This document shows positions 2,647-52,430 of a stretch of DNA of 64,000 bases, in pieces. The DNA comes from Actinotalea alkalitolerans (GTDB lineage: Bacteria; Actinomycetota; Actinomycetes; Actinomycetales; Cellulomonadaceae): assembly GCF_023369855.1 (NCBI RefSeq), contig NZ_JAMBPP010000005.1, positions 124,001 to 188,000 on the forward strand. The letters run 5' to 3'. The notes beneath the pieces are model-generated. The model saw nothing but the letters and a program-made list of their open reading frames with translations, was not told the origin of the DNA and searched no databases. Position numbers and translations under genes: made by a program. Within the stretch, counting starts at the first letter, position 1. Every line of letters starts with the position of its first letter.

Positions 2647-2676
2647 CTCATCGGCCTGTGCCCGGCCATTGTGACG
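2647..2676 (-). promoter_or_regulatory. Sigma-28-type promoter of flgN-flgK-flgL
   Basis: Read leftward: CGTCA, 17 bases, CCGATGAG. This matches the TCA-N17-YCGAT pattern found at ten other motility transcription starts in the window. The predicted start near 2640 leaves a leader of about 48 bases before flgN. The -35 element is the less common CGTCA form, shared with mcp4. Confidence 0.75.
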
Positions 2677-2722
2677 GTTTTGGCTAGGGGAGTTCTTTGC
2701 CCGCCGCGGCGAGACGCACAGA

Positions 2723-2738
2723 TGTGACGTGGATCACA
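2723..2738. promoter_or_regulatory. Crp/GlxR-type palindrome upstream of fliA
   Basis: TGTGA, six bases (CGTGGA), TCACA: a perfect match to the Crp-family half-site arrangement. It lies between the divergent flgN and fliA genes. A CATTGT hexamer at 2760-2765 could be the -10 element of fliA; that puts transcription start near 2772 and the palindrome centre at about -41.5, the class II activator position. The start site is inferred; no other good promoter for fliA is visible. Confidence 0.55.
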
Positions 2739-2900
2739 CTCCCAAAGGGCGGCAGTGGCCATTGTCCTGATTTGGCACGGGCCGAAACGGGCATCTGCAT
2801 CGATGTCGTCCAGTGCCCAGGAACGCCCCTTCGGGAGCCCCGGCGTCTTCACCCGCACCGCCCCCTCAAGTGCGCTAGCAGGCCCACCGAAACCCCGTTC

Positions 2901-3791
2901 GTGACCGCAACAGAGCACCCCACCAACGCGATGGTCGTCGAGCACATGGCGCTCGTCGGCTACCACGTCAACGCGATGCTGGCCCGCGTCCCCTCGTACG
3001 TCTCACGCAGCGACCTCGCCTCGGCCGGTGCGCTCGCCCTGGTGCGGGCGGCCCGTGCGTACGACGAGACCACCGGGGTGCCCTTCGGCCGCTACGCGAC
3101 CCTGCGCATCCGGGGCGCGCTGGTCGACGAGCTGCGCGGCATGGACTGGGTCTCCCGCGGTGCCCGGCAGCGCGCCCGCCGGATGACCGCCGTCGCCGAC
3201 CAGCTCACCGGCAGCCTGGGTCGCGCCCCGTCCCGCACCGAGCTGGCCGAGGCGATGGGCGTCCCGGTCGACGAGATCGACACCGCCCGCAGTGACGCCG
3301 ATGTGCGCATCCTGAGCATCGAGGGCTTCGACGGCTCGATCGCCGAGACGGTCGTGGAGACCGGCGCCGGCCCCGAGGAGTCGCTCATCAACTCCGAGAA
3401 GCTGACCTACCTGCGTGCCGGTGTCGAGAGCCTGCCCGAGCGGCTGCGGCACGTGGTCGAGCAGCTCTTCTTCCACGACCGTCCCGTCGTCGAGCTCGCC
3501 GCCGAGCTCGGGGTGACCCAGTCGCGGATCAGCCAGCTGCGCACCGAGGCCCTCGCGCTGCTCAAGGACGGCATGAACGCCAACCTCGACCCCGAGCTCG
3601 TCACCACCACCCAGCGCCCCGAGGGCGTCGCCGAGCGTCGCCGGCAGGCGTACTTCGCCTCGGTCGCCGCACGAGCCGCCGCGGTCTCGCAGGCCTCGAC
3701 CGCCGCGACGGTCCCCGCCCAGCGCGGCGGGGAGCACGACCTGCCGGTGTCCGCCGGACGGCCGCGCGAGCTCGACCTCGCGGTCGGCTGA
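2901..3791 (+). CDS. fliA: RNA polymerase sigma factor FliA (sigma-28 / WhiG type)
   Basis: Alternative sigma factor of the flagellar family. With the GTG start at 2901 the product has 296 residues. Region 2 is visible at about residues 25-95 (ASAGALALVRAARAYDE, RYATLRIRGALVDELR, then DWVSRGARQRARR, the FliA/WhiG signature), region 3 follows with a TELAEAMG segment, and region 4 has the helix-turn-helix ELAAELGVTQSRISQLR. About 60 residues rich in Ala follow region 4, longer than usual. The start is uncertain: no clear Shine-Dalgarno site precedes GTG 2901 or ATG 2931. It faces away from flgN. It probably reads the eleven TCA-N17-YCGAT promoters. No FlgM anti-sigma gene is seen in the window. 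Confidence 0.92.
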   Translation: MTATEHPTNAMVVEHMALVGYHVNAMLARVPSYVSRSDLASAGALALVRAARAYDETTGVPFGRYATLRIRGALVDELRGMDWVSRGARQRARRMTAVADQLTGSLGRAPSRTELAEAMGVPVDEIDTARSDADVRILSIEGFDGSIAETVVETGAGPEESLINSEKLTYLRAGVESLPERLRHVVEQLFFHDRPVVELAAELGVTQSRISQLRTEALALLKDGMNANLDPELVTTTQRPEGVAERRRQAYFASVAARAAAVSQASTAATVPAQRGGEHDLPVSAGRPRELDLAVG

Positions 3792-3799
3792 CGCACTCA

Positions 3800-3821
3800 C
3801 CGCGCGCCCTCGTGCGCGCGG
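3800..3821 (+). terminator. Hairpin after fliA
   Basis: CCGCGCGC and GCGCGCGG arms around a short loop, 8 bp after the fliA stop. No T-tract, as usual in such GC-rich genomes. A second hairpin follows at 3838, so the pair may form a two-part terminator. Confidence 0.5.
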
Positions 3822-3837
3822 CACAGAGCAAGGCCTT

Positions 3838-3865
3838 GGTGGCTCACCCGGCAGGGTGGGCCACC
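3838..3865 (+). terminator. Terminator hairpin between fliA and fliC
   Basis: GGTGGCTCACCC and GGGTGGGCCACC pair over 12 positions with one G-T wobble and a 4-base loop. It sits between fliA and the fliC promoter and would insulate flagellin transcription. Confidence 0.6.
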
Positions 3866-3901
3866 GTCGTCGTTCCCGGCGAAAAAGAAGTTCTGAGAAA
3901 A

Positions 3902-3931
3902 CCTCATCGTCGGCCCAGGGGGGCCGATCAG
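3902..3931 (+). promoter_or_regulatory. Sigma-28-type promoter of fliC
   Basis: CCTCA, 17 bases, CCGATCAG. Predicted transcription start is near 3937, giving a leader of about 55 bases that begins almost at the CATGGA hairpin (3941-3956). One of eleven sites with identical spacing. Confidence 0.8.
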
Positions 3932-3940
3932 ACAGGTGCT

Positions 3941-3956
3941 CGCCCATGGATGGGCG
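3941..3956 (+). promoter_or_regulatory. CATGGA hairpin in the fliC leader (candidate CsrA site)
   Basis: CGCCCA and TGGGCG form a perfect 6-bp stem with loop TGGA, so GGA is presented in the loop; CATGGATG fits the CsrA/RsmE consensus CANGGANG. Further GGA triplets lie in the Shine-Dalgarno region (3977-3982). This two-site layout, upstream hairpin plus ribosome site, resembles the Bacillus hag leader controlled by CsrA. Binding is inferred. Confidence 0.6.
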
Positions 3957-3990
3957 GCAGTTCCGACCCGAATCAAGGAGGAGTTCCATC

Positions 3991-4824
3991 ATGGGTCTCT
4001 CGATCAACCAGAACATCGCGGCAGTCAACTCCTACCGCAACCTGTCCAACACCCAGAACGACCTCGGCAAGTCGCTCGAGAAGCTCTCGTCCGGCTTCCG
4101 GATCAACCGTGCGGCCGACGACGCCGCCGGTCTCGCGATCTCCGAGGGACTGCGCTCGCAGGTCGGTGGCCTCAAGGTCGCTGCCCGCAACGCTCAGGAC
4201 GGCATCTCGGTGGTCCAGACCGCTGAGGGCGCCCTGACCGAGGTGCACGCGATCCTGCAGCGTGTTCGTGACCTGGCCGTCCAGTCCGGTAACGACTCGA
4301 ACAACGACAAGGCTCGGGAGAACATCGACACCGAGGCGACGAGCCTGGTGGCCGAGCTCGACCGGATCTCGAAGTCGACGAACTTCAACGGAACGCAGCT
4401 CTTGGACGGCAGCAACGCGACCCTGACGTTCCAGGTCGGCGCCGGCTCCACCGCCGCCAACGACCAGATTTCGGTCGATCTGAGCGACGCAAACGTCGGT
4501 GACGTCGCCACGGCGCTCGGCGCGCTCGACTTCAGCTCAGCCTCGGCTGCGCTCACATCGATCGAGCTGGTCGACACCCAGATCGAGGCTGTCTCGACCG
4601 CGCGTGCCGGGCTCGGTGCGATGCAGAACCGGTTCGAGCACACGGTCAAGAACATCAACGTCGCGGTGGAGAACCTGTCCGCGTCGGAGAGCCGGATCCG
4701 CGACACGGACATGGCGTCGGAGATGGTCAGCTTCACCCGGGCGCAGATCCTGTCCCAGGCGGGCACCGCGATGCTCGCCCAGGCCAACCAGATCCCGCAG
4801 GGCGTCCTGTCGCTCCTGCGCTGA
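3991..4824 (+). CDS. fliC: Flagellin
   Basis: Main filament subunit, exported and polymerised under the FliD cap. The 277-residue product has the N-terminal flagellin core (MGLSINQNIAAVNSYRNL; LEKLSSGFRINRAADDAAGL at about residues 30-49) and the C-terminal core (ESRIRDTDMASEMVSFTRAQ, ending QIPQGVLSLLR). Almost nothing separates the two conserved blocks except a short D1/D2 loop, so this is a small flagellin built nearly of D0/D1 only. The start is fixed by AAGGAGGAG at 3975-3983. It has its own sigma-28-type promoter, a candidate CsrA leader hairpin and a strong terminator, so it can be transcribed alone. Confidence 0.98.
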   Translation: MGLSINQNIAAVNSYRNLSNTQNDLGKSLEKLSSGFRINRAADDAAGLAISEGLRSQVGGLKVAARNAQDGISVVQTAEGALTEVHAILQRVRDLAVQSGNDSNNDKARENIDTEATSLVAELDRISKSTNFNGTQLLDGSNATLTFQVGAGSTAANDQISVDLSDANVGDVATALGALDFSSASAALTSIELVDTQIEAVSTARAGLGAMQNRFEHTVKNINVAVENLSASESRIRDTDMASEMVSFTRAQILSQAGTAMLAQANQIPQGVLSLLR

Positions 4825-4889
4825 TCTGATCAGCCGTAGCACCACGCAGCACCTGCACCACCAGCAGTACACGTAGCACCAGCTGCACA

Positions 4890-4936
4890 CCGGCCGGCGG
4901 CGGGATGACCTGGACCGTCACCCCGCCGCCGGCCGG
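4890..4936 (+). terminator. Terminator of fliC
   Basis: A 15-bp perfect stem of CCGGCCGGCGGCGGG with its complement, extended by TGAC/GTCA past one mismatch, around a 7-base loop. It follows fliC by 65 bp. It would stop most flagellin transcripts before fliD, leaving read-through for fliD-fliS. Confidence 0.8.
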
Positions 4937-4989
4937 AGCTGTCTGCGGCGCACAACGCGCCGCAACCCTCGCACCACAAGGAGAGCCCG

Positions 4990-6390
4990 ATGGCAGGGAT
5001 GAGCGTCGACGGTCTGGTGAGCGGCCTGAACACCACCGCGCTGATCAGTCAGCTGATGCAGGCCGAGGCCATGCCGCAGACCCTGCTCAAGCAGAAGTCG
5101 TCGACCGCCCAGACCTTCGTGACCGCCCTCCAGGGGCTCAACACCCGTATCGCCTCGCTCACGGACGCTGCGACCAATGCCGCCAAGCCCGCCTCGTGGC
5201 AGGCCTGGCAGGCCACCAGCTCGACCCCGGGCGCCACCGCGACCGCCGGGGCGGGCGCGCAGCCCGGGACGGTCACCTTCTCCGTCGACGCCGTCGCGAC
5301 GAGCCGTGTCTCGATCACCGCGCCCGTGGCCGACGACGGCAGCCTGCTGACCGGCGAGCCGCCATCTCTCACCATCCTCAGGAAGTCCGACAACACCCTC
5401 GTCACGGTCTCGCCGGCGTCCGGCAGCCTGAGCGACATCGCCAAGGCGATCAACGACAGCCCTGACGCCGGCGTCAAAGCCACGGTCGTCCGTGTCTCGC
5501 AGGAGCCTCCGACCTTCCGCATGCAGCTCACCGGCACCACGACCGGCAGCGCCGGAGGCTTCGAGGTTCACGCCGGCACGCACACCGACGTGGCGGACCT
5601 GACGCCCGCCAGCCGGATCGACGCAACGACCGTCCGCGAGGCCGCGAACGCACAGATCACCCTGTGGAAGGGGGTTGAGGGGCTAGAGCAGACCTTTTCC
5701 CAGTCCTCCAACACCTTCACCGGCCTGATGACCGGCGTCGACGTCACCGTCTCCAAGGTCACCGCCGCTGGTGAGGACCCGACCACCATCACCGTCGATC
5801 GCGACACCGAGGCCCTCAAGAAGCTCGCCTCGGGCCTGGTCGGTGCCCTCGGCGTCGTCTTCTCCGAGATCGCCTCGAAGACAGCGACCACGACCAAGAC
5901 GAACGCCGACGGCACCACCTCGGTCACCGGCGGGATCTTCTCGGGGGACAGCGCGATCCGTGGGATCTCTCAGTACCTCTCCGACGCGGTGTCGCGCCCG
6001 GTCGACGGCTACTCCCCCGCGGAGATCGGCATCGTGCTGGGCCGCGACGGGAGCTTCACCTTCGACGAGGAGAAGTTCAGCGCAGCCCTCGCTGCCGACC
6101 CTGCCAAGGTCCAGTCGATGCTGACCCAGATCGCCGACCGCGTGGCCACCACCGGCACGAGCATCTCTGACAAGTACGACGGCAGCCTGACCAACAAGAT
6201 CAAGGGCCAGGAGACGCTGGTCAAGGACTACGGCAACCAGATCGACTCATGGGACCGCCGTCTGGACCTGCGGCGTGCGGGCCTCGAGCGGACCTACTCG
6301 GGCCTCGAGGTCATGCTCTCCAAGATGAACTCGCAGTCCAGCTGGCTCGCCGGTCAGCTCTCCTCCCTGCCCTCCTGGTCGAACTCGTGA
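4990..6390 (+). CDS. fliD: Flagellar filament cap protein FliD
   Basis: Filament cap (HAP2) under which flagellin folds at the growing tip. The 466-residue product starts MAGMSVDGLVSGLNTTALIS, the typical FliD N terminus, with a coiled-coil C terminus (KGQETLVKDYGNQIDSWDRR, residues about 400-420). AAGGAG lies 7 bases before the ATG. No TCA-N17-YCGAT promoter is found between the fliC terminator and this gene, so fliD, fliS and the FliT-like gene probably depend on read-through from fliC or on a promoter I cannot recognise. fliS follows after 19 bp. Confidence 0.96.
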   Translation: MAGMSVDGLVSGLNTTALISQLMQAEAMPQTLLKQKSSTAQTFVTALQGLNTRIASLTDAATNAAKPASWQAWQATSSTPGATATAGAGAQPGTVTFSVDAVATSRVSITAPVADDGSLLTGEPPSLTILRKSDNTLVTVSPASGSLSDIAKAINDSPDAGVKATVVRVSQEPPTFRMQLTGTTTGSAGGFEVHAGTHTDVADLTPASRIDATTVREAANAQITLWKGVEGLEQTFSQSSNTFTGLMTGVDVTVSKVTAAGEDPTTITVDRDTEALKKLASGLVGALGVVFSEIASKTATTTKTNADGTTSVTGGIFSGDSAIRGISQYLSDAVSRPVDGYSPAEIGIVLGRDGSFTFDEEKFSAALAADPAKVQSMLTQIADRVATTGTSISDKYDGSLTNKIKGQETLVKDYGNQIDSWDRRLDLRRAGLERTYSGLEVMLSKMNSQSSWLAGQLSSLPSWSNS

Positions 6391-6409
6391 CTCCGGACGT
6401 GAGGTCCCG

Positions 6410-6856
6410 ATGAACTACTCAGCAGTCCGCACCCGCTACGTCGACGACACCGTCGCCACGGCGAGCCCGGCCAAGCTCCTGACCATGCTCTACGACCGTC
6501 TCGTCCTGGACCTGCAGCGCGCCGAGGCCGCTCAGCGCGGCGGCGACCGCGCCGCCGCGGGGGTCCAGCTCAACCACGCGCAGGACATCGTCGGCGAGCT
6601 CGTCTCGACCCTCGACGTCGACGCCTGGGACGGCGCCAAGCAGCTCATGTCGGTCTACACCTTCCTGCTCACCGAGCTCATCTCCGCCAACGTGGCCGGC
6701 GACGCCGAGCGCACCGCCGCGTGCCGCGAGCTGGTCGAGCCGCTGCGCGACGCCTGGCACCAGGCCGCGCAGGAGGTCTCGGTGACGGCCACACCGCTCG
6801 AGAACATCACCGTCGGAGCCCCGGGCCGGTCGCTCGGCGAGCTCGGTGTGGGCTGA
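6410..6856 (+). CDS. fliS: Flagellin export chaperone FliS
   Basis: Cytoplasmic chaperone that binds the flagellin C terminus and prevents early polymerisation. The 148-residue product has the family core: YVDDTVATASPAKLLTMLYD near residues 10-29, an all-helical body, and LNHAQDIVGELVSTLD near 49-64. The length is slightly above the usual 125-135, with a short tail. It sits between fliD and a FliT-like gene, the classical Gram-positive order. Confidence 0.94.
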   Translation: MNYSAVRTRYVDDTVATASPAKLLTMLYDRLVLDLQRAEAAQRGGDRAAAGVQLNHAQDIVGELVSTLDVDAWDGAKQLMSVYTFLLTELISANVAGDAERTAACRELVEPLRDAWHQAAQEVSVTATPLENITVGAPGRSLGELGVG

Positions 6857-6863
6857 GACCACG

Positions 6864-7214
6864 ATGAACCGGCCACCGCAGGGCTCGGCCCGGCAGGACA
6901 CCACCCAGCAGTGGGACGCCGCCTGGGAGACCGCGCTCACCGCGCTCGAGATGGACGTGGCCACCGCCGAGCACATGCTGACCCTGGGGCACATCGCCCA
7001 GGACCCACCCGCCGACCCATGGGCACCCCCGGTCGGTCTGGGCCCGCTGCCGGTCGCCATGGTCGAGCGCGCCCAGAGCGTGCTGGACCGGCAGATCGAG
7101 CTCGCCCGCCGGCTCTCCGAGGCCGCCGACCTGAGCCGCCGCCACAGCCGGGCGGCGCAGGCGCTGCGCTCGGCGGCCCCCTCGGTGCCGGTCTACGTCG
7201 ACACCCCCGCCTGA
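6864..7214 (+). CDS. FliT-like helical protein downstream of fliS
   Basis: A 116-residue helical protein (WETALTALEMDVATAEHML at about residues 19-37; MVERAQSVLDRQIELARRL at about 64-82) with no signal or membrane segment. Its place directly after fliS is where FliT, the FliD chaperone and regulator, or an equivalent small chaperone is found in many bacteria. Sequence alone does not prove FliT. ATG 6864 lies 7 bp after the fliS stop; an in-frame GTG at 6846 inside fliS is an alternative start. Confidence 0.6.
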   Translation: MNRPPQGSARQDTTQQWDAAWETALTALEMDVATAEHMLTLGHIAQDPPADPWAPPVGLGPLPVAMVERAQSVLDRQIELARRLSEAADLSRRHSRAAQALRSAAPSVPVYVDTPA

Positions 7215-7285
7215 GCCGACTCGCCGGACCCGGCCGGAGCCGATCCACGACGCCGACCTTTCACCCGATCGGACGTCGCCGAACT

Positions 7286-7315
7286 CCTCACGCAGCCCTG
7301 ACCACGGCCGATGGG
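7286..7315 (+). promoter_or_regulatory. Sigma-28-type promoter of the flgB-flgE operon
   Basis: CCTCA, 17 bases, CCGATGGG. Predicted start near 7321, leader about 76 bases. This would place the rod, MS ring, ATPase and hook genes under the same sigma factor as flagellin. Confidence 0.75.
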
Positions 7316-7343
7316 CAACCCGAGCAGGGATCGCTCACCCCGA

Positions 7344-7358
7344 GGCCATGGATCGGCC
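7344..7358 (+). promoter_or_regulatory. CATGGA hairpin in the flgB leader (candidate CsrA site)
   Basis: GGCC and GGCC pair around the loop ATGGATC, again exposing GGA. A GGAGGA run follows at 7364-7369. The stem is only 4 bp, the weakest of the group. Binding is inferred from its likeness to the fliC and flbD leaders. Confidence 0.4.
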
Positions 7359-7735: not shown

Positions 7736-7737
7736 CC

Positions 7738-16681: not shown

Positions 16682-16711
16682 ACTCACACCGGCCCACCTG
16701 CGGCCGATCAG
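16682..16711 (+). promoter_or_regulatory. Sigma-28-type promoter of flbD-motA-motB-fliL
   Basis: ACTCA, 17 bases, CCGATCAG. Predicted start near 16718, so the transcript begins almost exactly at the CATGGA hairpin that follows. Confidence 0.78.
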
Positions 16712-16763: not shown

Positions 16764-17069
16764 GTGATCGTCGTGACGCGCCTCAACGGACCGCAGTTCG
16801 CGGTCAACCCCGATCTGCTCCAGCGCATCGAGAGCACGCCGGACACGATCCTCACGCTCATCGACGGCACCAAGTACATCGTCGCGGAGTCGATGGAGAC
16901 CGTGACCGAGCTGGTCATCGAGTACCGCGCCAAGGTCGTCTCGCGGACCATGGACCTCACCGGCCCCCTGAACGACCGGGCAGTCGCCGCCGATCCCGCC
17001 GTCGCCGCCGTGACCGCCCTGCGCCCTGCGTCCTCCCGCCCCCTCACGTCCGTACCGGAGGCCGACTGA
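16764..17069 (+). CDS. flbD: FlbD family flagellar protein
   Basis: Small protein of the FlbD/SwrD family, which in Bacillus raises stator power and lies before motA-type genes. The 101-residue product contains the conserved core MIVVTRLNGPQFAVNPDLLQ and DTILTLIDGTKYIVAESM within its first 50 residues; the last 40 residues are variable. GTG 16764 gives the typical N terminus. It is the first gene of the motor operon, and its stop overlaps the motA start as TGATG. Its mechanism is not established. Confidence 0.88.
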   Translation: MIVVTRLNGPQFAVNPDLLQRIESTPDTILTLIDGTKYIVAESMETVTELVIEYRAKVVSRTMDLTGPLNDRAVAADPAVAAVTALRPASSRPLTSVPEAD

Positions 17070-19423: not shown

Positions 19424-19453
19424 CCTCAGGACCCCTGCGGCCCTGCCGATGGG
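19424..19453 (+). promoter_or_regulatory. Sigma-28-type promoter of fliM-csrA export operon
   Basis: CCTCA, 17 bases, CCGATGGG. The expected transcription start is about 19458-19461, coinciding with the GTG start of fliM at 19460, which suggests a leaderless first gene. Confidence 0.7.
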
Positions 19454-21758: not shown

Positions 21759-22609
21759 CGCTGCCCCTGACACCTCCCACCTCCCCCCTCACCCCCACCC
21801 CGAGCCGTGCCCCGCGGACGGCACTGGTGGTCCTGCTGGCACTGGTCCTGACGGTCCTGGTCCTCATGCTGGGCGCCGGAGCGGCCGCAGCCGCCCCCGT
21901 CCCGCCCACCGACCCGGTCGCCCCGGCGGACCCGGCGACCACCGACCCGACCGTCTCGATCGACCTCAACGGCGTCAACGGGACGCCCAACAGCTCGATC
22001 GTGGTGCTGCTGACCATCACGCTGCTCTCGGTGGCCCCGTCGCTGCTGCTGATGATGACGAGCTTCACCAAGATCTTCGTGGTCCTCGCGCTGACCCGGA
22101 ACGCGATGGGTCTGACGGGTGTGCCACCCAACCAGGTGCTGGCCGGGCTGACCCTCTTCCTCAGCCTGTTCATCATGGCGCCGGTCATCAGCGACGTGAA
22201 CGAGACGGGCGTCCAGCCTTACCTCGCGGGTGACGCGACCTTCGCCGAGGCCGTCGAGGTGGGCTCGGACCCGCTGCGGACGTTCATGCTCGGCCAGACC
22301 CGTGAGGCCGACCTGGCCCTGGTGACCCGCACCGCGGACCTGCCCAACCCCGAGACGCCCGAGGCCGTCCCGATGACCAGCCTCATCCCGGCCTTCATGC
22401 TCTCCGAGCTGCGCTCGGCGTTCATCATCGGATTCGTCATCTTCGTGCCGTTCCTGGTGATCGACCTGGTCGTGGCCGCCTCGCTGATGAGCATGGGCAT
22501 GATGATGCTGCCCCCGGTGATGGTCTCCCTGCCGTTCAAGCTGCTGCTCTTCGTCCTGGTCGACGGGTGGGGCCTGATCGTCACCGCGCTGGTGGGGAGC
22601 TACGCCTGA
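21755..22609 (+). CDS. fliP: Flagellar biosynthetic protein FliP
   Basis: Core subunit of the export gate. I choose TTG 21755, overlapping the fliO stop, giving 284 residues with a signal peptide (TALVVLLALVLTVLVLMLG, about residues 22-40, then an Ala-rich cleavage region). The conserved body has SVAPSLLLMMTSFTKIFVVL, GVPPNQVLAGLTLFLSLFIM and the C-terminal GMMMLPPVMVSLPFKLLLFV. The rare TTG start matches the frame and keeps the signal peptide; no ATG or GTG exists before the signal, and GTG 21826 would cut into it. Confidence 0.95.
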   Translation: MTLPLTPPTSPLTPTPSRAPRTALVVLLALVLTVLVLMLGAGAAAAAPVPPTDPVAPADPATTDPTVSIDLNGVNGTPNSSIVVLLTITLLSVAPSLLLMMTSFTKIFVVLALTRNAMGLTGVPPNQVLAGLTLFLSLFIMAPVISDVNETGVQPYLAGDATFAEAVEVGSDPLRTFMLGQTREADLALVTRTADLPNPETPEAVPMTSLIPAFMLSELRSAFIIGFVIFVPFLVIDLVVAASLMSMGMMMLPPVMVSLPFKLLLFVLVDGWGLIVTALVGSYA

Positions 22610-28124: not shown

Positions 28125-28238
28125 CCCCTGCCGCGACTGGCGCCTGCCGCGACGGTTCCATGGTCATCGCTGCCGGTGGCGTCCCACGGCGGCAGGTCGA
28201 TCGGGGGCTGCGCCGCCGGAGCGGATAGTCTCACCAGC

Positions 28239-28478
28239 ATGCTGGTCCTGAGTCGACGCGTCGGCGAACGCCTGATCATCGGTGACAACATCGTCATCAC
28301 GGTGATCGACGTGCGCAGCGACGGCGTGCGCATCGGCATCGACGCCCCCCGCGACGTGCGCGTGAACCGGGCAGAGGTGCTCGAGGCCGTCAAGCAGGCC
28401 AACCTCGAGGCGGCCTCGGCCGACGACGACGCCGTCGACGGTCTGCGAGCCCTGCGCCCGCCCACACCCGAGGCCTGA
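28239..28478 (+). CDS. csrA: Carbon storage regulator CsrA
   Basis: Dimeric RNA-binding protein that blocks or stabilises target mRNAs at GGA hairpins. The 79-residue product is a clear CsrA: MLVLSRRVGERLIIGDNIVI, then VRSDGVRIGIDAPRDVRVNR, with an acidic tail. It follows the flhF-like gene by 114 bp. A TAGTCT hexamer at 28226-28231, 7 bases before the ATG, could be a -10 box of a leaderless promoter, or csrA may be carried by the export operon. In motile Gram-positive bacteria CsrA represses flagellin translation and is titrated by FliW; fliW is not in the window. Candidate targets are the CATGGA hairpins. Confidence 0.97.
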   Translation: MLVLSRRVGERLIIGDNIVITVIDVRSDGVRIGIDAPRDVRVNRAEVLEAVKQANLEAASADDDAVDGLRALRPPTPEA

Positions 28479-32391: not shown

Positions 32392-32421
32392 CCTCACATC
32401 GCGGGGCGCAGGACCGATCAG
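32392..32421 (+). promoter_or_regulatory. Sigma-28-type promoter of cheA-cheW-mcp1
   Basis: CCTCA, 17 bases, CCGATCAG. Predicted start near 32427; leader about 45 bases, which contains two hairpins. Confidence 0.78.
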
Positions 32422-37337: not shown

Positions 37338-37367
37338 CCTCACCGCAACCACCGGACGGTCGATAGG
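37338..37367 (+). promoter_or_regulatory. Sigma-28-type promoter of mcp2
   Basis: CCTCA, 17 bases, TCGATAGG. Predicted start near 37373; leader about 40 bases. Confidence 0.75.
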
Positions 37368-37412: not shown

Positions 37413-39059
37413 ATGTCCAGCACCACCACCGTCCCGACCTCCGCGGGCAGCGCGTCCGGAGGGAAGGCCTCCTGGTTCGCCAACCTCTCGATCCGCACCA
37501 AGCTGCTGGGTGTCATCGGGATCCTCGCGGCCTCAGCCGCGGTCACCGGCATCACCGCGGTCGTGGCGCTGGGAGACACCGAGGAGGACGTCGACTCGAT
37601 CGCCTTCGCGAACGTCGAGCTCGCCCGGCCGTTGCAGATGATCCACCAGAACCAGCTCAAGGCGCGCATGATCATCGCTCAGGTCGCCGCGGCCGACACC
37701 CCGGGGCAGAAGCAGGCCTGGATCGACGAGCAGGTGAGCAACGACGCCGAGATCGAGGGCGACATCGCGGCCTTCGAGGCGGCTGCTGCGGGTGTCGAGA
37801 GCGGCTCGGACTCATGGGCCACGTTCTTGACGAACTGGGGCGTCTGGAAGGACATCCGCGACACGCAGCTCGTGCCCGCAGCCCTGGAGGGTGACGCCGC
37901 GGCGTACGAGCGGGCACTGACCACGGCCGCGGAGCCCGCCAAGGGTGAGTACGTCGACGCCCTGGACGCCATCGCCGAGGAGATCATCGTCTACTCCGAG
38001 GGCGTCGTGGACACGGCGCACTCGGAGGTCCGCTCCGCCACCACCCTGGTGATCGGGCTGCTGATCGGCTCCCTGGTCCTGGTCCTGGCGCTCGGGTTCG
38101 CCCTGGCCGCCTCGATCCGCTCGTCGCTGACCAAGGTCAAGGAGTCTCTCGAGGCCATGGCGACCGGTGACCTGACCGTCGTCCCGCAGGTGCACAGCAC
38201 CGATGAGATCGGGCAGATGGCTGCCGCGCTGGTGACCGCGCAGACGGCTCTGCGTTCGACGTTGCGGGGTGTGGGTGAGGCGTCGGTGACGATCGCTGCT
38301 GCTTCGGAGGAGCTGTCGGCTGCGGGGTCGCAGGTCTCGGCGGGTTCTGAGGAGACCAGTGTGCAGGCGGGGGTGGTGGCGGCTGCTGCGGAGCAGGTGT
38401 CGCGCAATGTGCAGGCGGTGGCTGCGGGGGCGGAGCAGATGGGTGCGTCGATCCGGGAGATCGCTCAGAATGCCAATGAGGCGGCTCGGGTGGCGGCGCA
38501 GGCCACGGGGGTGGCCGCGTCGACCAATGAGACGGTCTCGAAGCTGGGGGTGTCGTCGCAGGAGATCGGGAACGTGGTCAAGGTGATCACGAGCATCGCT
38601 GAGCAGACGAATCTGCTGGCTCTGAATGCCACGATCGAGGCGGCTCGTGCGGGTGAGGCGGGCAAGGGGTTCGCGGTGGTGGCTGGTGAGGTCAAGGAGC
38701 TGGCGCAGGAGACCGCGCGGGCGACCGAGGACATCGCGCGTCGGGTGGAGGCGATCCAGGCTGATACGACCGGGGCGGTGGCGGCGATCGGTCAGATCAG
38801 CGAGATCATCGCGAGCATCAACGACTACCAGCTGACGATCGCCAGTGCGGTGGAGGAGCAGACGGCCACGACCAACGAGATGTCGCGGGGTGTGGGTGAG
38901 GCGGCGACCGGGTCGGGGGAGATCGCGGTGAACATCACCGGGGTGGCCACGGCGGCGTCCTCCTCCAGTGAGGTGCTGTCCCAGATGGGGTCCTCGATCA
39001 CCGAGCTGGCCCAGCTCTCGGCCGACCTGCGTACCCGGGTCGGCGCCTTCACCTACTGA
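37413..39059 (+). CDS. Methyl-accepting chemotaxis protein (mcp2), mosaic codon use
   Basis: Chemoreceptor of 548 residues: membrane helices at about 28-53 and 209-234, a four-helix-type sensor region between, HAMP at about 235-287 and the signalling hairpin with tip [20 protein letters not shown]. From about base 38225 to 38945 (signalling domain) codons switch from mostly C-ending to many G- and T-ending (GCT, GGT, AAT, TCG), unlike its own first half and the three other receptors. This points to replacement of the signalling half by recombination. GAGGAG precedes the ATG. Ends RTRVGAFTY. Strong terminator follows. Confidence 0.94.
38628..38683 (+). repeat. 56-bp repeat shared by mcp2 and mcp3
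   Basis: Identical to 40880-40935 in mcp3, including the unusual codons GCT, CGT and GGT of the mcp2 style, which stand out in mcp3. Encodes the hairpin tip ([19 protein letters not shown]). Suggests transfer from mcp2 into mcp3 by gene conversion. Confidence 0.8.
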
Positions 39060-39601: not shown

Positions 39602-39631
39602 CCTCACACCCGGGCCTTCGGATCCGATAGG
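39602..39631 (+). promoter_or_regulatory. Sigma-28-type promoter of mcp3
   Basis: CCTCA, 17 bases, CCGATAGG. Predicted start near 39637; leader about 34 bases with a small GACCC-CGAG-GGGTC hairpin at 39638-39651. Confidence 0.78.
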
Positions 39632-39670: not shown

Positions 39671-41311
39671 ATGGCACGGACGCCACGCACAGACACCGCC
39701 GTACCGTCGACGCGACGCCGGGGGTTGCGCGCCTGGTACGGGGACCGCGCCGTCCGGACCCGGATCCTGCTGCTGGTGGTGATCTTCGTGCTCGTCGGCA
39801 TCGTGCTGGGTGTTCGGTCGGTCGAGGGCATGCGGACCCTCGCCGGGGGGACGGAGTCGCTCGCCCGGATGCAGGCGGAGATCGCGGAGCCGGTGGCGCG
39901 GATCCGCGAGCACCAGGCCGACGCGGGGATGATCACCGCCCAGATCGCCGCGGCGAACTCGGACTTCGTCATGGCGCCGTGGATCGTCGAGCTGGGTGTC
40001 AACGACGGTGCGATGACCGAGAGCATCGCGGCGGTCCAGGATGCCGGAGGAGCCGACCTGGCGGGCTGGCCCGAGTTCGTCGCCGGCTGGGAGCAGTGGC
40101 TCGCCGTCCGCGACGCCGAGCTCCTGCCGGCTGCCCGGAAGAACGACCAGGCCGCGTACGAGCAGGCGCTGACCCGGTCCGCCGAGCCGCTGCGCACCGA
40201 GTACCTGGCGCAGCTGGACCGTGTCGGCGAGGACATCACCGCTCGGATGACCGCGACGGCCGATGCGGCCGCGGCGCGCGCGGCGATGTCCATGACGATC
40301 CTCGTGACGGGCCTGGTCGTGACGATCCTGCTGATCGGGGTGCTCGGCCTGAGCACCGCGAACGGCGTCCGGCGGTCGGTCGGGCGGGTCCGCGACTCCC
40401 TCGAGGCGATGGCGGCGGGTGATCTGACGGTCACCGCTGAGGTCGACAGCGCCGACGAGATCGGTCAGATGGCCCGGTCGCTGCACGCCGCCCAGACCGC
40501 CCTGCGCAGCACCCTCGCGGGTGTCGCCGAGAGCGCCGTGGTGCTCGCCGCCGCGAGTGCCGAGATGTCGGCCAGCGGGTCCCAGGTCAGCGCCGGCGCC
40601 CAGGAGACCAGCGTCCAGAGCGGGGTCGTCGCCGCAGCGGCCGAGCAGGTCTCGCGCAACGTGCAGGCGGTCGCGGCCGGGGCCGAGCAGATGGGCGCCT
40701 CGATCCGCGAGATCGCCCAGAACGCCAACGACGCCGCCCAGGTGGCCGCCCGGGGGGTGTCCACCTCGCAGGCGACCGCGGCGACCGTGGCCGCGCTCGG
40801 TGCGAGCGCCGAGGAGATCGGCGCAGTCGTCAAGGTGATCACGAGCATCGCGGAGCAGACCAACCTGCTCGCGCTCAACGCCACGATCGAGGCGGCTCGT
40901 GCGGGTGAGGCGGGCAAGGGGTTCGCGGTGGTGGCGGGCGAGGTCAAGGAGCTCGCCCGCGAGTCGGCCCGGGCAGCCGAGGACATCGCTGTGCGCATCG
41001 CGGCCAACCAGACGCAGACCGCCTCCGCGGTGACCGCGATCGGCGAGATCTCCGAGGTCATCACGGCGATCAACGACTACCAGCTGACCATCGCCTCGGC
41101 CGTCGAGGAGCAGACCGCGACGACCAACGAGATGAGTCGCAGCGTGACCGAGGCGGCCACCGGATCGGGGGAGATCGCCGTCAACATCACGGGCGTCGCC
41201 ACCGCCTCGGCGGCCGCGACCGAGATGCTCGACCGCATGCAGGTGTCGATCGCGGACCTGGCGCAGATGTCGGCCGACCTGCGTGACCGGGTCGACGCCT
41301 TCACGTACTAG
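39671..41311 (+). CDS. Methyl-accepting chemotaxis protein (mcp3)
   Basis: Chemoreceptor of 546 residues: membrane helices at about 31-48 and 207-228, sensor region 49-206, HAMP, and signalling hairpin with tip [20 protein letters not shown]. Ends RDRVDAFTY, with no CheR-binding pentapeptide. The signalling domain carries stretches identical to mcp1 (79 bp) and mcp2 (56 bp), so it is a patchwork. GGAGGAG precedes the ATG. Own sigma-28-type promoter. Ligand unknown. Confidence 0.94.
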
Positions 41312-41377: not shown

Positions 41378-41407
41378 CGTCATGGGTGGGGGGCCTGAGT
41401 CGATCCT
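41378..41407 (+). promoter_or_regulatory. Sigma-28-type promoter of mcp4
   Basis: CGTCA, 17 bases, TCGATCCT. The most divergent of the eleven sites, next to an inverted repeat, so mcp4 may need an activator. Predicted leader about 39 bases. Confidence 0.55.
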
Positions 41408-41451: not shown

Positions 41452-43095
41452 ATGCCCAGCACCGCCACCGTGATCACCGCACAGCCCCCTCGCCGTCGCA
41501 CCCCGGCAGTGCTGGGCCGCGCGTCCGTCCGGACGAAGATCCTCTCCCTGGTTGCTGTGTTCACGGTGTTCAGCGCCGGGCTGAGCCTCCTGGCCATCAC
41601 GTCGATGACCACCCTCAAGGACGACGCCGAGCTGATCGCCACGACCCAGGCGTCGGTGGGCACCTCGCTCACCGCCCTGAAGGACGGCATGTGGAACGTC
41701 CGCATGTACATCCCCCTGGTCGCCGCGTACGAGGGGGACGGCAAGGACGACCAGCTCGCCCGCCTGCAGGCCGCGTACGACCAGCTCGACACCGCCTCCG
41801 CCGCGTTCGTGACTGCCTTCGAGGAGGCCAACGGTCGCCAGCCGGAGCGCTGGCAGGACTTCGTCTCCTCGCTCGCGAGCTACCGCCAGATGGTCGACGG
41901 GGAGCTGATGGACGCCGCGATGTCCGACGACCGCGAGACGTTCGCCGCGATCCGTGCCGGCGGGGCCGCCGACCTCGGCGCCGCGATGATCGGGAACCTC
42001 ACCGAGCTCGAGGCGGAGGTTGTGACCCTCTCGGCCGCCCTCGCGCAGGAGACCGACGACGACGCCCACCAGGCGATCGGGGTCGTCATCGTCCTGAGCG
42101 TGACGGGTGTGCTGGTCGCCGCGGCGCTGGGCGTGGCCCTCGCAGGCGTCATCCGCCGGTCCGTGGTCGACGTCAAGCGCTCGGTCGACGCGATGGCCAC
42201 GGGTGACCTGACCGTCCGGCCGGTCGTCCGCTCCCAGGACGAGATCGGGCAGATGGCCCAGGCCCTGGTCCTCGCCCAGGACGCGCTGCGGGCCCTGGTC
42301 CTGGGCGTCGTCGACTCCTCGTCGATGGTGGCGGCCGCCGCCGAGGAGCTCTCCGCCGCGAACACGCAGGTCGCGGGCAGCGCGCAGGAGTCCTCCGCAC
42401 AGGCCGGTGTGGCCGCTGCCGCCGCCGAGCAGGTCTCGCGCGACGTCCAGACCGTGGCTGCGGGCGCGGAGCAGATGGGTGCCTCGATCCGGGAGATCGC
42501 GCAGAACGCCAACGACGCCGCCCGGGTCGCGGCGCGCGCGGTGCAGATCTCGGACACCGCAGCGGGGACCGTCAGCGCCCTGGGCGACAGCTCCCAGGAG
42601 ATCGGGAACGTCGTCAAGCTGATCACCAGCATCGCCGAGCAGACGAACCTCCTCGCGCTGAACGCGACGATCGAGGCCGCCCGTGCCGGTGAGGCCGGCA
42701 AGGGGTTCGCCGTCGTGGCCGGTGAGGTCAAGGAGCTCGCCCAGGAGTCGGCCCGGGCCGCGGAGGACATCGGCGCACGGATCGCGACCAACCAGGGTCA
42801 GACCGCTGCAGCGGTGGGTGCGATCGGGGAGATCGGCCAGATCATCGCCTCGATCAACGACTACCAGCTGACCATCGCCAGTGCCGTGGAGGAGCAGACG
42901 GCCACCACCAACGAGATGTCCAGGGGTGTCACCGAGGCCGCGACGGGCTCGAACGAGATCGCCGTGAACCTCACCGGCATCGCCGCAGCGGTGGCCTCCT
43001 CGCACGACGTCCTGGCACAGATGGGTGGCTCCACGGACGAGCTGGCGCGGATGGCTGCGGACCTCCGGGTCAAGGTCGCCGCGTTCACCTGCTGA
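41452..43095 (+). CDS. Methyl-accepting chemotaxis protein (mcp4)
   Basis: Chemoreceptor of 547 residues: membrane helices at about 29-50 and 208-232, sensor region between, HAMP and signalling hairpin with tip [20 protein letters not shown]. It ends [10 protein letters not shown]. The ATG at 41452 follows GGAGCCCCC; an in-frame extension to 41386 would start upstream of the predicted transcription start and is rejected. Sensor sequence is the most different of the four, so it probably senses another ligand. Confidence 0.94.
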
Positions 43096-43153: not shown

Positions 43154-43183
43154 GCTCACATCCCCCGGCCGACGGTCGATCTG
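43154..43183 (+). promoter_or_regulatory. Sigma-28-type promoter of the cheB operon
   Basis: GCTCA, 17 bases, TCGATCTG. Predicted start near 43189; leader about 33 bases, beginning with a GCGCG-ACAC-CGCGC hairpin (43190-43203). Confidence 0.7.
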
Positions 43184-46978: not shown

Positions 46979-47017
46979 CGAGAGCACCTGCCGGGACTCA
47001 ACCGGCGGGTGCTCTCG
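46979..47017 (+). terminator. Terminator of the cheB operon
   Basis: CGAGAGCACCTGCCGG pairs with CCGGCGGGTGCTCTCG over 16 positions with one wobble and a 7-base loop, 46 bp after the last che gene. It separates chemotaxis from the sigma factor operon. Confidence 0.85.
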
Positions 47018-47031
47018 TGCGTGTACACATC

Positions 47032-47703
47032 ATGAGCATGTCGATCACCGAGCACGGGTCACCGCCCGGCGGCACCGCCCCGGCCGACGGCGTCCTGCCG
47101 GTCGGCGTCGAGGCGGAGACCGTCACCGTCGACCTCGACCGACGCGGCGAGGCTGATCGCGAGTCGGAGTTCGCGGCCTTCATGGCCGGCTCGGCGCCGC
47201 AGCTCGCGCGGACGGCATGGCTGCTCTGCGGCGACGCGCACCTGGCGGACGAGCTCGTGCAGCAGGCGCTGGTGCGCACCTACCTGGCGTGGCCGCGTGC
47301 TCGTCAGGGCGACCCGTTGGCCTACGCACGACGCACCCTGGCGAACCTGCGCATCGACCTGTGGCGGCGGCGCCGTCGTGAGGTGCTGACGGCGCCGGCG
47401 GAGATGCCCGAGGGCGGTCACGCGTCGGGTGCCGACCGGCATGCCGAGCGTGACGAGCTGGTCCGCGCACTCGCGACCCTGAGCACGCGCCAGCGGCGGA
47501 TCGTCGTCCTGCGGCACTTCGTCGGGATGACCGACGCCGAGGTGGCCGACGACCTCGGCGTGTCGGTGGGCACGGTCAAGTCGACGGCCTCGCGGGGCCT
47601 GGTGCGTCTGCGGACGGTGCTGGACGGCGAGAGAGCGGACGGGCGCCACGACGGCGACCACGCGGTGGGAACCACGAAGGGAGCGACCGATGGCGCGCGA
47701 TGA
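47032..47703 (+). CDS. ECF sigma factor, SigE family
   Basis: Extracytoplasmic-function sigma factor, 223 residues. Region 2 is at about residues 45-110 (ARTAWLLCGDAHLADELVQQ; ARRTLANLRIDLWRRRRR) and region 4 at about 145-200 (LSTRQRRIVVLRHFVGMTDA, EVADDLGVSVGTVKSTASRG). This is the actinobacterial SigE/SigL-like type. ATG 47032 is chosen; GTG 47017 lies in the terminator stem. The next gene overlaps its end by 14 bp and is probably its regulator. Confidence 0.9.
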   Translation: MSMSITEHGSPPGGTAPADGVLPVGVEAETVTVDLDRRGEADRESEFAAFMAGSAPQLARTAWLLCGDAHLADELVQQALVRTYLAWPRARQGDPLAYARRTLANLRIDLWRRRRREVLTAPAEMPEGGHASGADRHAERDELVRALATLSTRQRRIVVLRHFVGMTDAEVADDLGVSVGTVKSTASRGLVRLRTVLDGERADGRHDGDHAVGTTKGATDGAR

Positions 47704-48724
47704 GGACCTGGGGTCGTTGAGCACCTGGTTCGACGAGACCTCGGCCGAGGGTCGAGCGGCGGACGCCCTGGCGCAGGAGCGTCGTGCAGCGCAGGCGGAG
47801 GCCGAGGAGGACTTCGCCCGCGGTCTGCGGGAGAGGGTCGACCTGGTGGCGCCGCCGGTCCCGGTGCGTCTGGACCGGGTGGTGCCGCGCGCACGCCGTC
47901 GACGCGCCTTGGTGCGCGGGGTCGCGTCGTGCGCGGCGGCTGCTGCGGTGCTCGGGGGGGTCGCGGTGGTGCAGGCGCTCCCGTGGGAGTCGACGGCCGT
48001 GGCGCCCGCGTCCCAGGAGACCGAGGACCCGTCGCAGGGGGCGGCGACCGACGACGTCGCGGAAGAGGTCAGCACCGGCGAAGAGGCCGTCAGCGCCACG
48101 GGCGGCACGTTCTGGTACGTCCTGAGCGAGAGTCGCGACCCCGGGACCACGGATGCCCCGGAGGTCATGGAGTCGTGGTCGAGCCTCGACCAGCCCGGTC
48201 TCCTGGTCTGGGGCGGTGACCTGTCGACCGCTGCGGGGAAGGGTCCCTCAGACGTCGTCGGGCGGTTCCGCATCGACGGGGAGTGGGTCGACATGCTGCG
48301 CGAGCCCGAGCGGCTGCCCACCGACGCCGCGGGCCTGGGTGAGGTGCTGCGGGCCAGCGTCGAGCCGGACCGCCGCAGCGGGTCCGACGACGAGAAGGTC
48401 TTCGGCATGGCCCGGGACCTGATGACGGCGGGCGGGTTGGTCCCCGACGCGCTGCGCCGCGCGGCCTGGGAGGTGGCGACCGGTCTGCCGGGTGCGCAGA
48501 TGGCTCCGGGCGAGGACTCCACCGGCCGGGCAGGTCAGGTCGTCGAGTACACGCAGGACGGCGCGCCCGTCAGGATCGTGTGGGACGAGGATGCGGCGCT
48601 GAAGCTCGAGGAGACGAGCGACGGGTGGACCTCGATCCTCCTGGAGCAGCGCTTCTCCACCGACCCGCTCCCGGTCGAGCCCACCCTGGAGAACGCCGGC
48701 TGCGCCCAGTGGTCCACCTGCTGA
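47690..48724 (+). CDS. Membrane protein paired with the ECF sigma factor
   Basis: A 344-residue protein with a charged cytoplasmic N terminus (1-70), one membrane helix at about residues 75-95 (GVASCAAAAAVLGGVAVVQA) and a large outside domain (about 120-344) with a Cys pair near the end. The overlap with the sigma factor gene suggests an anti-sigma or sensing partner, a common actinobacterial arrangement. I see no ZAS zinc-binding motif, so the anti-sigma role is inference. Confidence 0.72.
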   Translation: MARDEDLGSLSTWFDETSAEGRAADALAQERRAAQAEAEEDFARGLRERVDLVAPPVPVRLDRVVPRARRRRALVRGVASCAAAAAVLGGVAVVQALPWESTAVAPASQETEDPSQGAATDDVAEEVSTGEEAVSATGGTFWYVLSESRDPGTTDAPEVMESWSSLDQPGLLVWGGDLSTAAGKGPSDVVGRFRIDGEWVDMLREPERLPTDAAGLGEVLRASVEPDRRSGSDDEKVFGMARDLMTAGGLVPDALRRAAWEVATGLPGAQMAPGEDSTGRAGQVVEYTQDGAPVRIVWDEDAALKLEETSDGWTSILLEQRFSTDPLPVEPTLENAGCAQWSTC

Positions 48725-48735
48725 GCGGACGCCCG

Positions 48736-49746: not shown

Positions 49747-49839
49747 GCCTCCCAGGATGCCCCAGGTGGCGGACAGGATCTGACCTCTACCACCGACAGG
49801 CTCGGAGGGTCCGCAGCGACCACCCGAACTGGAGCACCC

Positions 49840-50880: not shown

Positions 50881-51719
50881 CCGCCGAGACCACCCCCGTC
50901 GCCACCCGCAGGGGCGTCATGCCCGAGCCGACCACGCCCGACGCCCCGGACCGCAGGAGCTGGTTCGCCGACACCTGGACCGTGATGGTGCGTGAGCTGC
51001 GCCCCGTGGCCCGCGAACCCTTCAACCTCGTCTTCGGCCTCGTGCAGCCCCTGGTCTTCCTGGGGCTCTTCGGCCCGCTGCTCGCGGGCTCCCTGGGTGA
51101 CACCGGTGTGCTGGGGCCCGACGTCTGGCAGTGGTTCGTCCCCGCGATCCTGGTGATGCTCACCCTGTTCGGGTCCTCGACCACGGGGGCGAACCTGCAG
51201 CTCGAGATGCAGACCGGCGCCCACGAGCGGCTGCTGGTCACACCCTTGCCGCGCTCCTCCCAGCTGGTCGGCCGCTCGCTCAAGGAGATGGTGCCGATCG
51301 TCGCGCAGGCGGTCGTCATCGTCCTGGTGATGCTGCCGTTCGGGTTCGCCCTGCACGGGACGGGCGCCGTGCTCGGCCTGCTGCTCCTGGGGGTGCTCGG
51401 GGTGGGCCTCGGCTCGTTGAGCTACACCCTGGCGCTCGCGGTGCGCTCGCAGGAGTGGATGTTCTGGGCCGTCCAGCAGACCGTGCTCTTCCCCGCGATG
51501 ATCCTGTCCGGGATGCTGCTCCCGCTCGAGAACGGACCCGGCTGGATGCAGGTCGCGGCACGGGCCAACCCGGTCGCCTACGTCGTGGACGCCGAGCGGG
51601 CGCTCTTCGCCGGTGAGGTGTGGTCCTCGACGGTCGCGTGGGGCTGGGTCGCAGCCCTGCTGACCGCAGCGGTGGGGCTGGCGGCCGGGGTGCGGGCGAT
51701 CTCCCGCAGCACCGACTGA
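50877..51719 (+). CDS. ABC-2 type exporter permease
   Basis: Membrane partner of the ATPase, 280 residues with six membrane segments; the first 30 residues are cytoplasmic. Family features: EPFNLVFGLVQPLVFLGLFG (about 43-62), MQTGAHERLLVTPLPRSS near 110, and FPAMILSGMLLPLENGPGWM (about 207-226). Converges on the M15 peptidase gene with 3 bp between stops. Confidence 0.94.
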   Translation: MTAETTPVATRRGVMPEPTTPDAPDRRSWFADTWTVMVRELRPVAREPFNLVFGLVQPLVFLGLFGPLLAGSLGDTGVLGPDVWQWFVPAILVMLTLFGSSTTGANLQLEMQTGAHERLLVTPLPRSSQLVGRSLKEMVPIVAQAVVIVLVMLPFGFALHGTGAVLGLLLLGVLGVGLGSLSYTLALAVRSQEWMFWAVQQTVLFPAMILSGMLLPLENGPGWMQVAARANPVAYVVDAERALFAGEVWSSTVAWGWVAALLTAAVGLAAGVRAISRSTD

Positions 51720-51722
51720 GGA

Positions 51723-52361
51723 TCAGCTCGTGGGGCGGTAGGTCCAGTGCCAGGGTTCGCGGGGGACGTCCTCGACGAAGCCGTAGTCCTTGGCGTTGGA
51801 CCGCATCCACGCCTGCGCGGTGCTGTCGAGCTTGAGGTCAAGGGCGATGCCCCAGCCGTGGTTGCTCGTGCCGGGTGCGGCGGCGAGCCCACCCTGGGAG
51901 TACAGGCCCTTGCGCTTGACCAGGTCGACCTGGACGTCGAAGGGCCGGTAGGAGTCGGTGACACCGATGCTGACCCCGTCGCGGGCCGCCGCAGCCCTCA
52001 TGGCCTCGAAGGACCGGGCCGCGGGAGCCCACAGCGAGTGCCCGCTGACCCCGTCGATGGGGCTCAGCGCATGCCCCGGGACGGTGCCGTTGCCGTACTG
52101 GACCAGCTCGAGGGGCACGCCCTTGGCGTTGACCTGACCGGCGCCGGACCCGGGGGCCGACGGGGCCGTCAGGGTCGCGGTGGACATGCCGCCGATCGAC
52201 CCCTGGGCGGCGATCGCGTCGGTCAGGGCTGCGCCGAAGGTCGACGACGTGGACGCGGCAAGCGCGCTGACGGGTGCCACCACCGCAGGCTGGGGCGCCA
52301 ACGAGGCGATGGTCGACTGGATCTGCAGGATCCTCTGGCTGATGCCGGCGATCGCCTCCAC
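51723..52361 (-). CDS. M15 (VanY/DdcY-type) D,D-carboxypeptidase in the motility regulon
   Basis: Zinc peptidase acting on peptidoglycan stem peptides. From GTG 52361 (GGAAGG 8 bases upstream) the product has 212 residues. The M15 domain covers about 80-212: SYRPFDVQ (137-144), SNHGWGIALD with zinc ligands H168 and D175, and EPWHW with E202 and H205. No signal peptide; the first 55 residues are MEAIAGISQRILQIQSTIAS followed by an Ala-rich stretch and FGAALTDAI, like actinobacterial proteins exported by the flagellar system. Its promoter is a perfect sigma-28-type site. I infer it opens the wall for the rod, replacing FlgJ. Convergent with the ABC permease. Confidence 0.88.
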   Translation of the reverse strand: MEAIAGISQRILQIQSTIASLAPQPAVVAPVSALAASTSSTFGAALTDAIAAQGSIGGMSTATLTAPSAPGSGAGQVNAKGVPLELVQYGNGTVPGHALSPIDGVSGHSLWAPAARSFEAMRAAAARDGVSIGVTDSYRPFDVQVDLVKRKGLYSQGGLAAAPGTSNHGWGIALDLKLDSTAQAWMRSNAKDYGFVEDVPREPWHWTYRPTS

Positions 52362-52400
52362 ACGCACCACCTTCCGGCTCGGGATCTCACGCGTACCTGG

Positions 52401-52430
52401 CCTATCGGCCGGGCACGGTGGGGTGTGAGG
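52401..52430 (-). promoter_or_regulatory. Sigma-28-type promoter of the M15 peptidase
   Basis: Read leftward: CCTCA, 17 bases, CCGATAGG, identical in its boxes to the mcp3 promoter. Predicted start near 52395, leader about 35 bases. It ties this gene, 5.5 kb from the che operon, to motility. Confidence 0.78.

Follow-up and report, generated by a model that had tools for sequence, protein, structure and literature searches.

A conserved TCA-N17-YCGAT pattern points to a probable flat, FliA-type flagellar regulon and also precedes c-di-GMP genes in Actinotalea alkalitolerans

The consensus of Escherichia coli sigma-28 (FliA) promoters is spaced as TAAA-N15-GCCGAT. In Actinoplanes missouriensis, eleven mapped transcription starts reportedly share the pattern CTCA-N15-17-GCCGAA, and one sigma factor is said to have been proposed for all of them. 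Flat organization of a flagellar regulon has a precedent in Actinoplanes: a review (PMC8306008) describes 33 flagellar genes of A. missouriensis as transcribed simultaneously, without hierarchical coordination. Passages of a study on the WhiG-RsiG system of Rubrobacter radiotolerans (PMC8325347) quote TAAA as the -35 and GCCGATAA as the -10 element of sigma-28, place five of twelve mapped-start promoters before diguanylate cyclase or phosphodiesterase genes, and describe a search for WhiG promoters as TAAA/GCCGATAA, allowing up to two mismatches, together with a link to type IV pili. Here, we analyzed a flagellar and chemotaxis cluster of Actinotalea alkalitolerans, located in a stretch of 64 kb (C31:124001-188000, hereafter the window) of a genome of 4.37 Mb, 35 contigs, and 72% GC. 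An earlier reading of this stretch, made from the sequence only, had proposed that eleven promoters of one rigid pattern form a flat sigma-28 regulon. With a probability of roughly three in four, we consider that TCA-N17-YCGAT defines a flat flagellar regulon that would be read by FliA, entered in two steps via fliA and free of FlgM, with WhiG acting on a subset of genes for cyclic di-GMP (c-di-GMP) turnover.

A pattern search of the window confirmed all eleven sites as exact matches to TCA-N17-[CT]CGAT. They start at 3904, 7288, 16684, 19426, 32394, 37340, 39604, 41380, and 43156 on the forward strand and span 2650-2674 and 52404-52428 on the reverse strand; the sites of the sequence-only reading are real, although its positions were off by 2-3 bases. 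In total the window holds 19 matches, compared with a mean of 2.94 and a maximum of 8 in 100 dinucleotide shuffles. The eight further matches (813-, 8427-, 9018, 10931, 11801, 21975, 22706, and 45314-) are intragenic, lying in flgK, fliE (antisense), fliF, fliG, fliI, fliP, fliQ, and a response regulator gene (antisense), the one at 21975 being, by our reading, in the N-terminal part of fliP. As the whole genome contains 430 matches (~6 per 64 kb), such intragenic matches are common and position matters. The -35 element of the eleven sites reads TCA throughout, CTCA in nine, TCAC in eight, and CCTCA in seven, the last number being as proposed before. The -10 element, YCGAT by definition of the sites, is preceded by G in 9/11, and the trailing AA is mostly replaced by NRG. 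TAAA does not occur before CCGAT or TCGAT at any gap of 10-25 within the window, so that the proposed difference from the E. coli -35 element holds. Likewise, a genome search for TAAA-N15-GCCGATAA with up to two mismatches returned 12 matches, all with two mismatches and none with TAAA.

The spacing is conserved among relatives, whose loci were all fetched by FliA, some contigs being common to the named set and the other sets of the order. The distance from CTCA to CCGAT (gaps 10-25) peaks at 17 in 32 named loci, with 68 occurrences while the remaining gaps average 3.9, and in two sets of 20 further loci of the order (37 vs. 3.1 and 32 vs. 2.4). In 22 non-actinobacterial loci, gap 17 occurs 6 times against a mean of 3.1, and in 12 Actinoplanes-like loci it does not occur at all; the latter do not contain the flagellar cluster, and a blind dyad scan of them did not bring up the motif either. 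Applied to 15 named Cellulomonadaceae loci, the blind scan ranked TCA-17-CCGAT first of all trimer-pentamer dyads (61 vs. 4.0). Judged from these gap counts, the conservation of the spacing across families of the order would be a new element.

Ten of the eleven sites precede motility genes, as had been proposed for all of them. On the reverse strand, the predicted FliA-type promoter at 2650-2674 precedes flgN (2110-2640; Pfam FlgN, 8.5e-21) and flgK (687-2102; TIGR02492, 2.3e-88). All others of the ten lie on the forward strand and precede fliC (site 3904-3928, gene 3991-4824), the unit flgB/flgC-fliE-fliF-fliG-fliI-fliJ-fliK-flgD-flgE (7288-7312), flbD (16764-17069) with motA, motB, and fliL (16684-16708), fliM (19426-19450), cheA-cheW and a methyl-accepting chemotaxis protein (MCP) gene (32394-32418), three further MCP genes at 37413-39059, 39671-41311, and ~41452-43095 (sites 37340-37364, 39604-39628, and 41380-41404), and cheB-cheR-response regulator-cheX-response regulator (43156-43180). 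The unit behind fliM continues with fliN, fliO, fliP, fliQ, fliR, flhB, flhA, and csrA, the latter at 28176-28478 (+), close to the end of the unit. The start codons of flgN (ATG, 2640) and fliM (GTG, 19460) fall 10 bases past the T of CGAT, approximately where a sigma-28 transcription start is expected; therefore, both messages may be leaderless. For fliD and fliS (4990-6856, +), no site of the form TCA-N15..19-[CT]CGA[TAC] was found in 4780-5010, the interval separating fliC from fliD, in agreement with the claim that fliD and its followers lack one; they would be transcribed by read-through from fliC. Directly after the chemotaxis unit, the region 47017-48724 (+) contains a gene of an extracytoplasmic function (ECF) sigma factor of the SigE family (TIGR02983, 3.7e-50), followed by a gene whose protein has no Pfam match and one likely membrane segment, perhaps forming a sigma/anti-sigma pair.

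A different picture was obtained for fliA itself, whose upstream region was compared across 66 loci including the window (8 of 74 being dropped with region 2 not readable, and both named and other copies being counted). Sense-strand TCA-N17-YCGAT precedes fliA in none of them. The proposal that fliA lacks the common site is thereby sustained, but the gene is not devoid of other signals. CTCAAG-N14..17-CCGA occurs upstream of fliA in 22 of the 66 loci, always with N16 and never with a CCGAT end, against a background of 0.019 per 720 bases. The resulting element, CTCAAG-N16-CCGA[ACG], ends about 10 bases before the start codon. In the window it reads CTCAAG-N16-CCGAA (2865-2891, +), and GTG 2901 follows after nine bases as the predicted start of fliA (2901-3791, +), a divergent member of the FliA/WhiG family (TIGR02479); the protein query had been started at 2898, one codon earlier. 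Consequently, fliA appears to have a promoter-like element of its own and of a distinct class, and such a separate fliA element would be new. A link between the CTCAAG element and presence of WhiG (8/21 vs. 0/11 further loci of the order, 8/40 dropped) was discarded as being confounded by kinship. In five loci of another family (L084, L094, L096, L097, and L134), CTCAAG-N16-CCGA[AT] recurs before further genes, and a CACCCG..CGG box often stands directly 5' of the -35 of those elements, as if it were an activator site.

In addition, a CRP-like box (TGTGA-N6-TCACA, at most one mismatch) lies upstream of fliA in 36/66 loci, compared with a background of 0.014. Its representative here, the palindrome TGTGACGTGGATCACA at 2723-2738, is the sole pattern match in the window, and a single match does not exceed chance expectation. 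Across loci, the box is 148-182 bases from the fliA start and 52-185 bases from the divergent flgN-type start. Since the first distance varies less, the box seems to go with fliA, perhaps with an additional start farther upstream, and the idea that it serves to activate the divergent flgN promoter was rejected because of the variation of the second. Presumably, a CRP-type protein binds the predicted box. A search by title for published work on Cellulomonas FliA or sigma factors, or on flagellar promoters with CRP control, returned nothing on point. The stretch from the CRP-like box to the fliA element (2740-2860 in the window, likewise upstream of fliA in L110-L117) contains further short blocks common to several relatives (AAGTCGGAC and a partly palindromic TGTCCGGATT..AATCGGACA), which may represent an operator.

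Outside the window, the pattern extends to c-di-GMP signaling. Of 36 genomic matches to the stricter form CTCA-N17-YCGATNRG, eight fall in the window, and all of the other 28 were examined. Eighteen sit 3-62 bases 5' of a gene, judged by distance and coding bias, while ten are intragenic or without a convincing downstream gene. Sixteen of the 18 genes encode a GGDEF, EAL, or MCP protein (for three of these the domain is located outside the scanned stretch and was taken from the genome-wide GGDEF/EAL/MCP gene lists), one has no Pfam match, and the last encodes a FIST protein and is followed by a GGDEF-EAL gene. The genome comprises 44 c-di-GMP (GGDEF/EAL) genes, among them domain mixes such as periplasmic-binding-domain GGDEF-EAL, TPR-GGDEF, and EAL-DICT, and 11 MCP genes. 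Scanning upstream of 48 genes, i.e., all 44 c-di-GMP genes and four of the seven MCP genes outside the window, revealed the core pattern in sense orientation for 21 and in antisense for one. These 21 comprise 18/44 c-di-GMP and 3/4 MCP genes at gap 17, no other gap between 10 and 24 exceeding three. Two additional sites located further into a long open frame (L304 and L326) raise the c-di-GMP total to 20/44, the wider interval behind this figure having no antisense control. Three MCP genes of the window have their own site and one is inside the cheA unit; outside, six of seven have one (L018, L019, L033, L322, L323, and L325), and in the seventh, L324, it lies deep in the open frame. The pattern is therefore not confined to motility, as it also stands before about half of the c-di-GMP genes, and its rigid spacing of 17, valid for all eleven window sites, is not absolute elsewhere (N18 in 3/44 c-di-GMP genes). 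On present sequence data, this wide overlap of the skeleton with c-di-GMP genes would be a new element as well.

The same scan found the pattern before 6/20 genes in relatives (18 Cellulomonas genes and two others; antisense 0/20) and, within the genus-level group g17, before 3/20 genes of FliA-bearing and 4/20 of FliA-lacking genomes (antisense 0/20 each). The absence of a difference between these two groups of g17 genomes makes it less likely that the c-di-GMP promoters are driven by FliA. Moreover, the c-di-GMP sites of this genome deviate from flagellar ones: A at +4 is absent from all 20 but present in 21/55 flagellar sites (p 0.0008, corrected 0.03), and T at +18 is found in 11/20 versus 7/55 (p 0.0004, corrected 0.016), with the correction made for 40 tests at positions picked post hoc. 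The 55 flagellar sites combine the 11 of the window with 44 from Actinotalea relatives; the latter were collected by searching entire loci for the CCGAT form only, and chance matches are among them. All four WhiG-only sites carry G at +4 and T at +18, but they are homologous. Such subclasses fit, without proving it, an assignment of FliA to flagella and of WhiG to c-di-GMP genes, and WhiG probably reads the c-di-GMP subset.

Which sigma factor reads which site we infer from the family members encoded in the genome and from their distribution. The cluster FliA has TIGR02479 as best family (8.8e-46, 156-158 bits, under the cut-off of 189.6) and, as closest named FliA, that of Actinotalea subterranea (80% identity), ahead of proteins from other Actinotalea and from Cellulomonas. 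A clear WhiG is encoded at C29:169777-170454, adjoining a tyrosine recombinase gene (NF004935, 369 bits, cut-off 343). On the joint family, WhiG reaches 267.7 bits versus 158.1 for the cluster FliA, and a third match (113.6 bits) is located on contig C2. The motif occurs without WhiG, as the flagellar loci L082, L095, and L098 hold 4, 3, and 4 sites compared with means of 0.1-0.4, absence of WhiG meaning no second family match at E<=1e-20 in these genomes. Conversely, it occurs without FliA: TCA-N17-CCGAT precedes 4/20 GGDEF genes in FliA-lacking, WhiG-bearing relatives (antisense 0/20). These four genes are homologous, and their homologue in our genome, L302, shares the TCATGCG beginning. Because of both occurrences, FliA and WhiG are probably both able to use the TCA-N17-YCGAT skeleton. 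In the -35 recognition helix, an Arg follows SR[VI]SQ[LIM] in 32/40 FliA proteins of the order (the other eight are without the SR motif), in 35/35 named, and in 13/13 Actinoplanes-like ones. In 15/22 non-actinobacterial FliA (seven unmatched), the WhiG of this genome, and E. coli FliA, His occupies this position, and the residue may set the preference for TCAC versus TAAA. In L099, L101-L105, L108, and L109, which represent some families of the order, the FliA helix differs (such as TH[SA]AVSQQR), and DEMR replaces DELR.

Taken as a mechanism, TCA-N17-YCGAT would be the promoter recognized by an actinobacterial branch within the sigma-28 (FliA/WhiG) family, with TCAC in place of the E. coli TAAA and an unchanged distance to the -10 core (TCAC-N15-GYCGAT vs. 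TAAA-N15-GCCGAT). As fliA has its distinct element and the CRP-like box, the scheme would be a two-step one. In the first step, inputs would act on fliA via CTCAAG-N16-CCGA[ACG] and the box upstream; in the second, the cluster FliA would read all flagellar and chemotaxis units except fliA and turn on the whole machine at once. WhiG would share the skeleton and probably read much of the c-di-GMP subset. FlgM was not found over the cut-off in any of 198 genomes of the order, five showing weak matches (E 0.003-0.01) and this genome none, in a search that matched 4/14 control genomes, three over the cut-off. With all structural units behind the same promoter and FlgM lacking, an enteric-type hook checkpoint is unlikely. 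The notion of a flat scheme unlike the tiered enteric one is accordingly retained as to pattern and missing FlgM, whereas the step via fliA adds a level. Similarly, a single sigma factor for all units from basal body to receptors is favored by the shared, conserved pattern and the FliA-family gene in the cluster, but the skeleton is not exclusive to FliA.

Several observations weigh against this model. One of the eleven sites, 52404(-), stands before a VanY-type peptidase gene (51723-52370) and no known motility gene. When the blind dyad scan was restricted to the window, TCA-17-CCGAT remained outside the top 12. The fliA element is missing in 44/66 loci, and the CRP-like box, 148-182 bases away from the fliA start, is beyond the classical activation range for that start. 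Among 11 loci without WhiG, gap 12 is also prominent, with 13 occurrences versus 22 at gap 17 and 1-6 at the rest. Aquifex FliA has Lys instead of His in the recognition helix, and loci of the eight order FliA with a changed helix are still weakly enriched (11 sites vs. ~3), so the coupling between helix and motif is not tight. Genome-wide counts of CTCA-N16-GCCGATVR do not separate FliA-bearing from FliA-lacking among 198 genomes, at least three without a FliA match having more than 20; with matches in 194/198 genomes, these counts were dropped as evidence. The presence of the skeleton in WhiG-bearing genomes without FliA means that the motif alone is no proof of FliA.

One alternative is that WhiG reads all these promoters, flagellar ones included, leaving FliA another or an assisting role. 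The higher joint-family score of a clear WhiG, the sites before GGDEF genes of FliA-lacking relatives, and the WhiG-type promoters mapped before c-di-GMP genes in Rubrobacter according to passages of PMC8325347 speak in its favor. We regard it as improbable, considering that three flagellar loci keep the motif without a second family match (although a WhiG could escape the E<=1e-20 limit), that positions +4 and +18 distinguish flagellar from c-di-GMP sites, and that fliA sits in the cluster. The presence of fliA in all loci is no evidence in this respect, the loci having been chosen by FliA.

More serious, yet still doubtful, is a regulon that is not flat, in which early units also have hidden housekeeping or activator promoters, to which the FliA sites only add a boost. 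The fla/che operon of Bacillus subtilis is a model for such boosting of another promoter by a FliA-type site. At least one other input is indicated by the different element and the CRP-like box of fliA, and the sites do not preclude further transcription starts, but the same site is found on all units except fliA and fliD-fliS, and FlgM over the cut-off is missing. To an artefact of composition or codon usage in a 72% GC genome we give almost no weight: the 430 genome-wide and eight intragenic window matches would suit it, while the excess over shuffles, the gap-17 spike, the sense bias before signaling genes, and the coherent gene functions stand against it.

Beyond the flat, FliA-read regulon, we tentatively consider, as possible but not favored, that two sigma-28-type paralogues split one skeleton. 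FliA (Arg) would serve flagella and chemotaxis via CTCAC-type sites, and WhiG (His) about half of the 44 c-di-GMP enzymes via sites avoiding A at +4 and favoring T at +18 (TGYCGAT). fliA would be placed over the flagellar genes and itself be controlled by a third, leaderless promoter class, CTCAAG-N16-CCGA[ACG], plus the CRP-like box. If so, sister factors would control the flagellum and a large part of the c-di-GMP network, the outputs of motility and c-di-GMP would be coupled with possible cross-talk via near-identical promoters, and the system would be a test case of paralogous sigma factors separating or sharing nearly one promoter. The pattern can be used for predicting motility and c-di-GMP genes within the order, and the flat regulon would extend non-hierarchical control of the Actinoplanes type to Cellulomonadaceae and, by motif, to other families of the order.

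In comparison with known systems, the Rubrobacter WhiG-RsiG system likewise combines a sigma factor of this family with promoters upstream of c-di-GMP genes, but here the element is TCA-N17-YCGAT, flagella are included, and 20/44 c-di-GMP genes are covered. With FliA of E. coli and Salmonella, the locus shares a sigma-28-family factor, the -10 core CCGAT, and the distance between the elements known from the E. coli spacer. It differs in the -35 TCAC, the lack of a trailing AA, the inclusion of basal-body and hook units, and the absence of a detectable FlgM. The likeness in organization to Actinoplanes is that one promoter is found for all flagellar units except fliA and fliD-fliS. The -35 CTCA reported from there recurs in nine of the eleven sites, whereas its reported -10 GCCGAA is replaced by YCGAT at gap 17 in all eleven, CCGAA being found at the fliA element.

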